The position numbers and the translations under genes were made by a program. A DNA stretch of 35,035 nt from Methanolobus sp. GTDB taxonomy: Archaea > Halobacteriota > Methanosarcinia > Methanosarcinales > Methanosarcinaceae. The notes beneath the pieces are model-generated. The model saw only the letters and a program-made list of their open reading frames with translations, was not told the origin of the DNA and did no database searches. Numbering within the stretch: the first letter of the stretch is position 1; every line of letters begins with the position of its first letter. Positions 6,715 through 17,289 of the stretch are shown piece after piece. Where the stretch lies: positions 1-35,035 of the forward strand of contig JARVGJ010000024.1 of the NCBI GenBank assembly GCA_029762595.1, in the 5' to 3' direction.

Positions 6715-7142
6715 CTGCTCACCTCGTCACCAGCTTCTTCTTCAGCATTAATATCAACTTCTCTTGCCAGCATATCAGGCGTAAAGAGAAGATCTTCGTG
6801 GTTCCAGCGAATTACACCCGTCAGATACACATTTGAACTTGACAGCGCATCCTTTGGACACTGGTCGATGCATAGCCCGCAGAACAGGCAGTGACCGACA
6901 TCTATTGCAGGGAACCATCTTTGTTTTTCACTTTCCGGACCAATGCGTGCCCTGACTATTTTGATAGCATTGTTGGGACATGTGTTAGCACATATTCCAC
7001 AACCGATACATTTACTTTTATCAAGTTTCTGTAAGCCCCTGAATCGGTCTGAAAGTTTTGTGGCTACTTCCGGACACATCCTTGTAACAGGAGGACCGAA
7101 GTAAATGTTTTTAACTGCTGTGATAATATTTTTTATAACCAT
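6699..7142 (-). CDS. fpoI: F420H2 dehydrogenase subunit FpoI (2[4Fe-4S], NuoI-like)
   Basis: 147-residue electron-transfer subunit with two complete [4Fe-4S] motifs, CIGCGICANTCP (about 45-56) and CLFCGLCIDQCP (about 85-96). It carries electrons from the F420H2-oxidising FpoF towards cluster N2 in FpoB, on the cytoplasmic side of the membrane. The stop is TAG with an in-frame TAA two codons later, so read-through as pyrrolysine would add only two or three residues. The start is four bases after the fpoH stop. Confidence 0.96.
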   Translation of the reverse strand: MVIKNIITAVKNIYFGPPVTRMCPEVATKLSDRFRGLQKLDKSKCIGCGICANTCPNNAIKIVRARIGPESEKQRWFPAIDVGHCLFCGLCIDQCPKDALSSSNVYLTGVIRWNHEDLLFTPDMLAREVDINAEEEAGDEVSRWTPQ

Positions 7143-7146
7143 TCAT

Positions 7147-8178
7147 TCACACCCCCAGCAGGCCCAATACAACTACCCATCCAAGGTTCAGGAGGGATAA
7201 TGGGAGAAGCTTTTTCCAGCTTAGGTCTACCACCTGGTCTATCCTGTACCTTGGAAGAGCCCACCTGATCATTATGATCGTGAGTATTACCAGCACTACC
7301 TTACCCATGAAGAAGGCAGTCGGAAGAATTATACCAAGGATAGTGTTCGCAGTCAGTGCTGCAGGCAGATTCCATCCGCCAAGGAATAACAGAACAATAA
7401 GCATTGAACCCAGAATAAGGTGAATATATTCTGCAAAGAAACCCAGACCGAATCTCATACCTGTATATTCAGTGATCCACCCGGCAACGAGTTCTTCCTC
7501 TGATTCGTTCTGGTCAAAGGGAAGACGACCCATATCAGCCATGATAGCAACGAAGAATACAATGAATCCTATTGGTTGCATGAATATAAACCACAGAGGA
7601 CTCTGTGCCTGGGCTATTTCCACTATGTTCAATGAGCCGGCCATTACAGCAACACTCACTATACAGATACCAAGAGGCACCTCATATCCTATCATACGTG
7701 CAAAGTTCCTGAAAGCACCAAGTACTGAATACTTGTTGTTTGCACTGTATGCGACCATGAAAATACCAATAATGGATATAGCGGACATAGCTTCAATGTA
7801 AAGCACACTGATATCCATATCAGTTGCTGCAATTGGATATGTTTCTCCGTTAATGATTATCGCACCGAAAGGAATTGCCACAAGCATCAGGAAAACGGAA
7901 CCCATGAGAATGATAGGTGCTGATACGAACAACAACCTGTCAGCGTTCTTGGGAATAATGTCCTCTTTGGTGAACAGTTTGATAGCATCGGCAAAAAGCT
8001 GGAGCAAACCATGCGGACCAGCCCTCATAGGACCGTATCTCTGCTGGATATCTGCAGAAAGTTTACGTTCAAACCACACAGCAGCCATTGCACCAAGGAA
8101 AATGGCACCCATAAGGACCAGGCCAAGTATACCTCGTAAAAGCGGATTGTAGATAATATCATCTAAATGCATCATCAT
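7147..8178 (-). CDS. fpoH: F420H2 dehydrogenase subunit FpoH (NuoH-like)
   Basis: About 343-residue membrane protein with eight helices, the subunit forming much of the quinone/methanophenazine pocket. Family signatures are visible: LLQLFADAIKLFTKEDIIP, the arginine- and glutamate-rich loop around MADMGRLPFDQNESEEELVA, and a C-terminal WALPRYRIDQ. The start is ambiguous among GTG 8184 and ATGs at 8178, 8175 and 8172; AGGTGA within the end of fpoD best serves the ATG cluster. Confidence 0.95.
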   Translation of the reverse strand: MMMHLDDIIYNPLLRGILGLVLMGAIFLGAMAAVWFERKLSADIQQRYGPMRAGPHGLLQLFADAIKLFTKEDIIPKNADRLLFVSAPIILMGSVFLMLVAIPFGAIIINGETYPIAATDMDISVLYIEAMSAISIIGIFMVAYSANNKYSVLGAFRNFARMIGYEVPLGICIVSVAVMAGSLNIVEIAQAQSPLWFIFMQPIGFIVFFVAIMADMGRLPFDQNESEEELVAGWITEYTGMRFGLGFFAEYIHLILGSMLIVLLFLGGWNLPAALTANTILGIILPTAFFMGKVVLVILTIIMIRWALPRYRIDQVVDLSWKKLLPLSLLNLGWVVVLGLLGV

Positions 8179-14203: not shown

Positions 14204-15190
14204 ATGAATGATTTTGTAACATTCTGCCGTAATGTATTCATACCTGTGACAAATGTCTGCAGGAACAGATGCGGGTACTGTACATTCAGACGCGACCCTG
14301 TTGACCCCGGGGCAAAGCTCATGAAAATAGAAGAGATCGTACCGATCCTTGAAAAAGGAAAAAAAGCAGGATGTACAGAAGTTCTTTTTACTTTTGGAGA
14401 ATATGCGGAGGAAGTGCCCGCATATAGGGAATGGCTGCAAGAACTTGGATACCCCAGCACGATCGATTATATATGTGAATTATGCAGAATTGCCATCAAT
14501 AAAGGTCTATTACCACACACAAACGCAGGGGTTCTTAACTATTCAGAACTTGAACAGCTAAAATCCTTAAATGCAAGCATGGGCCTGATGCTTGAAACAA
14601 CTGCAGATATTGTCGCACATGAAGGTTCACCCGGTAAGACGCCTTCCAAAAGGCTTAAAACGATACGTTATGCAGGAGAACTGAATATCCCTTTTACAAC
14701 TGGGATACTTGTAGGAATTGGAGAGACATTGGACGACAGGATCAATTCCCTGCTGGCTATTGCAGAATTACATGAAGAATATGAGCACATACAGGAAGTT
14801 ATAATACAGAACTTCACACCAAAACCGGACACCCTTATGTCTGATATGCCATCTCCCAGTGAAGAAGAGATGATGCAGGCCATACTGATAGCAAGGGAAA
14901 TACTTCCCAACGATGTGGCAATACAGGTTGCTCCTAACCTGATCGACCCTTACACCCTGATACAGTGCGGGGCCAGCGATCTGGGAGGGATATCCCCGAC
15001 AACCATTGACTGGATAAATCCTGAGTCCGAATGGCCAGACGTCTCGGAACTCGTAGAGATGTTACAGGAGGTCGGGCTAAAGGAAAGACTTCCTATATAC
15101 CCACAGTACATTAAGAAAGAATGGTATAGCGATACATTAAAAGAGCTCATTGATGACCTTTCAGATAATGAAGGATACCGTAAGATCTGA
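14204..15190 (+). CDS. cofG: CofG, 7,8-didemethyl-8-hydroxy-5-deazariboflavin (Fo) synthase subunit 1
   Basis: 328-residue radical SAM enzyme. The cluster motif C19-x3-C23-x2-C26 lies in NVCRNRCGYCTFRRDP, as in CofG. With CofH it makes Fo, the chromophore of coenzyme F420, from tyrosine and 5-amino-6-ribitylamino-uracil; CofG carries out the second step, closing the deazaflavin ring. The C-terminal QCGASDLGGISPTTIDWINP segment is typical. AGGAA lies upstream of the ATG. It is 53 bases after the CrtI-like gene and about 50 bases before cofH. Confidence 0.96.
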   Translation: MNDFVTFCRNVFIPVTNVCRNRCGYCTFRRDPVDPGAKLMKIEEIVPILEKGKKAGCTEVLFTFGEYAEEVPAYREWLQELGYPSTIDYICELCRIAINKGLLPHTNAGVLNYSELEQLKSLNASMGLMLETTADIVAHEGSPGKTPSKRLKTIRYAGELNIPFTTGILVGIGETLDDRINSLLAIAELHEEYEHIQEVIIQNFTPKPDTLMSDMPSPSEEEMMQAILIAREILPNDVAIQVAPNLIDPYTLIQCGASDLGGISPTTIDWINPESEWPDVSELVEMLQEVGLKERLPIYPQYIKKEWYSDTLKELIDDLSDNEGYRKI

Positions 15191-15240
15191 TTTCATTTGG
15201 GCACATGGTTTAAATAGAAATGATAAGTATCGGAGAAAAT

Positions 15241-16359
15241 ATGAACCCTACTGTTATTCCTGATGATATAATAGAACGTGCCTACGAAGGTAAGACCACA
15301 AAAGAAGATGCACTCTTTCTGCTTGGAATACCACCGTTCAAACTTTACGAGCTTGCTGACAGATTACGTTCTGAAACAGTGGGCGACACTGTTACCTATG
15401 TGGTCAATCGAAATATAAACTTTACTAACCAGTGTGTTGGCAACTGCGGCTTCTGTGCATTCAGAGATAATACGGGTTATATTATGGATATTGCCCAAAT
15501 ACTGGAAAAAGTAAAGGAAGCAGAAGATCTCGGGGCTACAGAGGTTTGCATCCAGGGAGGATTGTTACCTGAAGTAGATATCGATTTTTATACAGACATA
15601 ATAAGATCTGTTAAAGCCGAGTACCCCCATATGCACACGCATGCATTCTCACCAATGGAGGTCTACCATGCTGCAAAGCAAAGCGACATTACGATTGAAG
15701 AGGCTTTAAAGCGCCTCAGGGATGCAGGGCTTGATACAATGCCCGGAACCGCTGCAGAGATACTATCAGACAGAGTCAGAGACATAATATGCCCAGGAAA
15801 GCTTAAAACCGATGAGTGGATGGATGTCATCACTCAGGCACACATGCTGGGAATAAACACAACCGCAACTATAATGTACGGACATATTGAAACCATTGAG
15901 GAGCGTATTGACCACATCATGCTTATACGGGACATACAAAAAAGAACAGGGGGATTCCTTGAATTTGTACCGCTCACTTTCATGCCTTACAATAACAGCA
16001 TAGGGTATGAAATGATCAAAGCAGGAAGATATGCCACTCCGGGAATACAGGACCTGCAATTGTATGCTCTTTCACGCATAATACTTAACACCCATATAAG
16101 CAATATACAGGCAAGCTGGGTAAAACTTGGAAAGAAACTTGCACAAGTGGCATTGTTCTGTGGCGTAAATGATCTTGGAGGGACACTTATGGAGGAAAAG
16201 ATATCAAGCTCAGCCGGTTCCACGAATGGTCAGTTCATGTCCGCACAGGAGCTTGAATGGTTTATCACCTCATCAGGAAGAAAACCACTTCAGAGAAATA
16301 CCACATATAAACCAATAATAAGCAGCAACCCGGCACATATGAAGTTAAAGATTGCCTGA
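15241..16359 (+). CDS. cofH: CofH, 5-amino-6-(D-ribitylamino)uracil-L-tyrosine 4-hydroxyphenyl transferase (Fo synthase subunit 2)
   Basis: 372-residue radical SAM enzyme that joins the tyrosine-derived hydroxybenzyl group to 5-amino-6-ribitylaminouracil, the first step of Fo synthesis. The motif C65-x3-C69-x2-C72 is in NQCVGNCGFCAFRD, followed by EVCIQGGLLP and the C-terminal GGTLMEEKISSSAGS typical of the MqnC/MqnE/CofH group. I chose ATG 15241 because GGAG lies six bases upstream; an in-frame ATG at 15220 would add seven residues. The TGA stop is followed closely by a second, internally deleted cofH. Confidence 0.95.
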   Translation: MNPTVIPDDIIERAYEGKTTKEDALFLLGIPPFKLYELADRLRSETVGDTVTYVVNRNINFTNQCVGNCGFCAFRDNTGYIMDIAQILEKVKEAEDLGATEVCIQGGLLPEVDIDFYTDIIRSVKAEYPHMHTHAFSPMEVYHAAKQSDITIEEALKRLRDAGLDTMPGTAAEILSDRVRDIICPGKLKTDEWMDVITQAHMLGINTTATIMYGHIETIEERIDHIMLIRDIQKRTGGFLEFVPLTFMPYNNSIGYEMIKAGRYATPGIQDLQLYALSRIILNTHISNIQASWVKLGKKLAQVALFCGVNDLGGTLMEEKISSSAGSTNGQFMSAQELEWFITSSGRKPLQRNTTYKPIISSNPAHMKLKIA

Positions 16360-16366
16360 GGACAAG

Positions 16367-16657
16367 ATGTATCTAAACGTTACTGATGATATTATTGACA
16401 GTGCATACAGTGGTGAGAACTGCAAGAAAGATGCTTTTGCCTTAATGGATGCAAATCCCCTAGAACTGAAGCTGGCACATACGGCATTGTTATGTGGTGC
16501 TGATTATCTGGGTGGAACCCTTATGGAAGACATGATCACTTTAGCTTCCGGTGGAACATGTGGAGAATATACCCCTGCAAAAGAGCTTGAATGGATAATA
16601 CGCCAGACAGGCAGGACACCACAAAAAAGAAATGCCCTTTATGAGGAAATCCAATGA
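16367..16657 (+). CDS. Internally deleted second CofH (mini-CofH) lacking the radical SAM core
   Basis: 96 residues. Residues 1-34 align with the CofH N-terminus (DDIIDSAYSGENCKKDAFAL against DDIIERAYEGKTTKEDALFL). Residues 35-96 align with the CofH C-terminus from about residue 299 (LCGADYLGGTLMEDM against FCGVNDLGGTLMEEK, then AKELEWIIRQTGRTPQKRN). About 263 residues, including the cluster cysteines and the whole barrel core, are absent, yet the frame is kept. It is probably what remains of a second cofH paralogue; some Methanosarcina species have two. ATG 16367 has GAGG five bases upstream, and the stop overlaps the cofC start (ATGA). It cannot be a radical SAM enzyme; it may be a decaying pseudogene or a retained small partner protein. 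Confidence 0.8.
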   Translation: MYLNVTDDIIDSAYSGENCKKDAFALMDANPLELKLAHTALLCGADYLGGTLMEDMITLASGGTCGEYTPAKELEWIIRQTGRTPQKRNALYEEIQ

Positions 16658-17289
16658 AAGCATTGATACCTTATAAAAAGAAAAACGCTAAGTCAAGACT
16701 TTCAGCAGTACTTACGCAGCAGGAACGTGAAGATCTTGTGGAGTTAATGCTCAGAGATGTTGCCTTCAGCCTCAGTGAAGCAGGAATCGATGAAATTGAT
16801 ATACTTACAACACCTGAGAACGGAGTTCCTACAGACCTGGGAGCAAATGTAATACTTGATGAGCATGATCTGAATGAAGCCATCAATGGCTATCTTGAAC
16901 ATGAGAGAAAACCTGTTTTGATAATCATGGCGGATGTGCCCCTGGCAAAGAGTGAGCATCTAAGAGAGATAAGTTCAAGATCAGAGGATGTTGTCATTGT
17001 TCCGGGAAAAGGAGGAGGGACGAATATTCTTTTCATAAAGGATCCTGCAAACTTCAGAGTCAAATATTACGGCCCCAGTTTCCTCAATCATTGTAGTATA
17101 GCAAAAGAAAGGAATTGTTCTGTGTACGTTTATGACTCCTTCCTATTAAGCACTGACATTGATGAGCCTCATGACCTTGTAGAGATAATGCTGCATGGGC
17201 ATGGAAATTCCCTTAGATATATAAATGAAAGATTTGATATTGAAACCGGAAGGTCAAGAGCTAAAATCAGCGCTCCGGGTAATGCATAA
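16654..17289 (+). CDS. cofC: CofC, 2-phospho-L-lactate guanylyltransferase
   Basis: 211-residue nucleotidyltransferase with the N-terminal signature ALIPYKKKNAKSRLSAVLT and the Asp-containing LIIMADVPLAK and IVPGKGGGTNILF motifs. It activates 2-phospho-L-lactate (or a related phospho-acid) with GTP, giving the donor used by CofD to build F420 from Fo. Its start overlaps the mini-cofH stop by four bases, so it belongs to the cofH operon. The TAA stop lies within the left arm of a perfect hairpin. Confidence 0.94.
   Translation: MKALIPYKKKNAKSRLSAVLTQQEREDLVELMLRDVAFSLSEAGIDEIDILTTPENGVPTDLGANVILDEHDLNEAINGYLEHERKPVLIIMADVPLAKSEHLREISSRSEDVVIVPGKGGGTNILFIKDPANFRVKYYGPSFLNHCSIAKERNCSVYVYDSFLLSTDIDEPHDLVEIMLHGHGNSLRYINERFDIETGRSRAKISAPGNA

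Follow-up and report, generated by a model that had tools for sequence, protein, structure and literature searches.

A 96-codon reading frame in a Methanolobus F420 operon is very probably a recent in-frame remnant of a second cofH gene

Why should an F420 operon carry a reading frame of only 96 codons between its cofH and cofC genes? The window analysed here is an entire contig of 35,035 bases from the 2.43 Mb genome of a Methanolobus species, which is assembled into 58 contigs and is 99.99% complete. On its plus strand the operon runs cofG (FO synthase first subunit, 14,204-15,190), cofH1 (FO synthase second subunit, 15,220-16,359), the 96-codon frame with its stop (16,367-16,657) and cofC (16,654-17,289). 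Of its neighbours, cofH1 is full length, retains the CxxxCxxC motif and scores 511 bits against the TIGR03551 cut-off of 374, and cofC scores 196 bits against a cut-off of 105 for TIGR03552. The short frame is preceded by the ribosome-binding site GAGG within GCCTGAGGACAAGATG, at the same location as in relatives ahead of a full-length gene, and this site lies in the cofH1 stop region TGAGGACAAG (16,357-16,366). At the other end the final codons, TATGAGGAAATCCAATGA (16,640-16,657), contain the GAGG ribosome-binding site of cofC and an ATGA overlap with its start at 16,654-16,657. The preliminary description of this locus had reported the frame, start, ribosome-binding site and both couplings as intact, and this holds, with seven bases separating the end of the cofH1 stop at 16,359 from the ATG at 16,367. 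A scan for promoters and terminators found nothing above chance.

A codon-level alignment with full-length CofH2, the second CofH paralogue that lies between cofH1 and cofC in Methanosarcinaceae, accounts for the whole frame. Residues 1-34 align to CofH2 columns 1-34 and residues 35-96 to columns 298-359, as first described, with the junction at 16,466-16,471 between codon 34 (CTG, Leu) and codon 35 (AAG, Lys); MAFFT alone placed three residues, LEL, on either side of it. Missing are 263 of 359 codons, or 789 bp, including those for the cluster cysteines, relative to the cofH2 of 17 congeneric genomes. The preliminary description named CofH as the parent with no distinction between paralogues, which can now be made more precise. 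With the cofH2 of a relative, G009, the C-terminal block shares 80% identity, against 50% with the adjoining cofH1, and on sequence grounds the parent is cofH2 rather than cofH1. Over the 96 shared residues the identity to this nearest full-length CofH2 is 73%. The site, orientation, flanks, start and ribosome-binding site are those of full-length cofH2; the short form differs in having lost the core codons, the [4Fe-4S] cysteines and the barrel, and in its altered NDLGGT and NGE segments. We found no clear direct repeat at the deletion endpoints and, using the sequence of relatives, no convincing microhomology beyond one or two bases. A plasmid nucleotide search and an initial contig scan with the 96-residue query also gave no match.

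The deletion cuts into both CofH domains. The product scores 61.4 bits against TIGR03551 (5-amino-6-(D-ribitylamino)uracil--L-tyrosine 4-hydroxyphenyl transferase), below the cut-off of 374.1, has no Radical_SAM match, the CxxxCxxC [4Fe-4S] motif being deleted, and covers only positions 62-118 of the 125 in CofH_C, about half the domain and again below cut-off. Lacking the radical-SAM cluster and barrel, it is, on its sequence, incapable of CofH chemistry. AlphaFold2 gave a pLDDT of 52 and a pTM of 0.27 for the fragment (18 sequences), compared with 82 and 0.84 for the full-length CofH2 of G009 as a control (17 sequences), and a search of solved structures found no relative of the fragment. 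The fragment is thus not predicted to fold, and the model gives no support for a function of the peptide.

Could the small protein nonetheless have been kept for a new role, for example as a dominant-negative modulator or dimer partner of CofH1? The open frame, intact start, ribosome-binding site and coupling would fit such a role, as would the low ratio of non-synonymous to synonymous change (omega) of 0.21 estimated over its whole branch. However, both domains are truncated, no stable fold is predicted, the N-D of NDLGGT and the N of NGE, otherwise invariant, have changed, and nine congeners dispense with cofH2 altogether. Searching related genomes with the 96-residue protein, a check suggested at the outset, returned no orthologous mini-gene among the matches listed in 112 family genomes. 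The idea of a retained CofH modulator, raised in the preliminary description, therefore found no positive support, and we consider this or any other new function highly improbable. A functional mini-CofH is unlikely. There is likewise only a slim chance that the two ends of CofH2 form a newborn translated mini-protein under selection, binding CofH1 or bridging to cofC.

The state of the locus across the genus points instead to gene loss. We read it in all 27 Methanolobus-type genomes except one, G013, where it is split over two contigs. Full-length cofH2 occupies the exact site in 17 genomes, nine have lost it, and only the present genome has the 96-codon form; it is thus not the case that all relatives carry the full-length gene here. 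The cofH1 stop and the cofC ATG are 1072-1086 bases apart in the genomes with full-length cofH2 and 294 in the present one, compared with 247 (G018), 62, 60, 60, 56, 26, 9 and 8 bases in those that have lost it. The remnant in G018 (L077, about 7024-7273) resembles ours, with both ends of cofH2 kept between an intact cofH1 and cofC and a similar length, 247 bp against 294. Unlike ours, which is in frame, it is frameshifted and shattered, its CofH2 pieces (NDDIIDN, FCSFKNERGYMLSSE, YTPADGLVWMIRQ and PILRNALYEEI) lying in three different frames. In G007, G010, G019 and G025 there remain tails of 56-62 bp with the last cofH2 codons and the cofC ribosome-binding site (TATGAGGAAATACAATG in G007), each carrying a frame-shifting loss of two bases immediately before that site. 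G020 retains 26 bases, G024 eight and G008 nine, and G013 reads the same as G008. We placed the genomes on a phylogeny of CofG, CofH1, CofC and the downstream reductase, several of whose nodes are weakly supported; the losers are scattered on this tree among cofH2 carriers, so cofH2 has been lost several times. The sister on this tree is G020, whose 26 bases are too few to trace passage through the same deletion.

These losses also bear on whether the frame, rather than the protein, is under selection, as a translational bridge from which ribosomes restart on cofC. Its ATGA overlap with cofC and the ribosome-binding site within its last codons are what such a bridge would look like. Yet the cofH2 frame is gone from G007, G010, G018, G019, G020, G024 and G025, where cofC follows only a short stretch with a local ribosome-binding site, so that a bridge is no general requirement; nor would it explain why 96 codons should be retained. 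The earlier suggestion that the frame keeps cofC translation coupled thus has no general need behind it, and we regard a bridge as very unlikely. The element kept by most losers is the cofC ribosome-binding site, whatever the frame, and not a mini-CofH. This stretch within the last cofH2 codons may be the one part that cannot readily be lost.

The residues that remain show an excess of change at invariant sites, which may reflect relaxed constraint. The fragment differs at five of the 44 sites that are invariant in the 17 CofH2s of the genus (F32L, Q38H, N46D, D47Y and N65C), among them the N-D of NDLGGT, which becomes D-Y, and the N of NGE. DLGGTLME had been described as a conserved segment, but the sequence here is DYLGGTLME, and N-D precedes (L/M)GGT in all 20 full-length CofH2s compared. 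When each full-length CofH2 was left out in turn, 0-2 such changes were found, 6/754 pooled (Fisher p = 1.5e-4 against the 5/44 of the fragment). The same test on the cofH1 of this genome, using the same genomes, gave changes at 3/191 invariant sites (p = 0.007 against the fragment). Both values are rough because related sequences are not independent.

Several features nevertheless count against a remnant. Over 96 codons we found no frame-breaking lesion, neither stop nor frameshift, and the frame retains its start, ribosome-binding site and overlap with cofC. The species is represented here by one genome. A branch codon model gave the omega of 0.21 on the fragment's branch against 0.11 elsewhere, a rise that is not significant alone (equality not rejected, 2ΔlnL = 2.3). 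Full neutrality over the whole branch (omega of 1) was rejected (2ΔlnL = 14.3), and for this reason we dropped an old neutral remnant in favour of a recent one. Most of the branch probably predates the deletion. In a model in which normal constraint gives way to neutrality, the best fit put the neutral phase in the final 5-10% of the branch, and neutral fractions of up to about 35-40% were not rejected; with these fractions the frame would escape every stop codon with a probability of about 0.4-0.8. A young wreck therefore need not show the stops or frameshifts that the preliminary description expected of a simple one. With one chance in three that a deletion is in frame, a single in-frame survivor among several independent losses would be unremarkable. 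The possibility of a very recent deletion, which the preliminary description had also allowed, is supported by the repeated loss of cofH2, the changes at invariant sites, the lack of a mini-gene in relatives and the expectation of an open frame.

We also considered whether the organism still has the 789 bp and only the sequence lacks them, since this is a draft assembly of 58 contigs and the question was judged from the assembled sequence. Exact matches between cofH1 and the fragment extend to no more than 12 bp, so there are no repeats prone to collapse and an assembly collapse is unlikely; the missing core was found on none of the 58 contigs of this near-complete assembly, and the changed invariant residues suggest that constraint had already relaxed. 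An assembly or sequencing artefact is accordingly extremely unlikely.

Taken together, the 96-codon frame is very probably a recent in-frame wreck of cofH2, a dispensable paralogue; an intact orthologue stands at the site in 17 of 27 genomes and the catalytic parts are lost, as in a pseudogene. An internal deletion of 789 bp struck cofH2, and because this length is by chance a multiple of three the frame stayed open. The frame is probably still translated, since its own ribosome-binding site is intact, into a product that is likely to be unstable, and F420 synthesis would be carried by the intact cofH1. Further decay is probable, as in the relatives. The fragment itself is ordinary, one stage in a series across Methanolobus species that runs from an intact cofH2 through internal in-frame deletion and a shattered gene to little more than the ribosome-binding site of cofC. 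This series indicates that CofH2 is dispensable in Methanolobus, and comparing species with and without it could show the role of the second CofH. A search for cofH2 in F420 operons gave no match among the papers covered; the genome paper of Methanohalophilus mahii lists cofH with its copies uncommented (PMC3017947).

Three further observations concern the wider family. The two-base loss in the cofH2 tail between cofH1 and cofC is common to L035, L076, L041 and L044 (in G007, G010, G019 and G025), which suggests a single common loss. G001, G005 and G022, in the same clade as these four, have an intact cofH2, which implies an error in the poorly supported branching or a regain of cofH2. In the sister genus g3, a third CofH-like gene of G091 (C1:1334626-1334817) is located well away from the F420 operon. 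Finally, in G100 the open frame that holds the C-terminus of cofH1 (C2:1497807-1498001) has only 133 codons, which may reflect a frameshift or a sequencing error.
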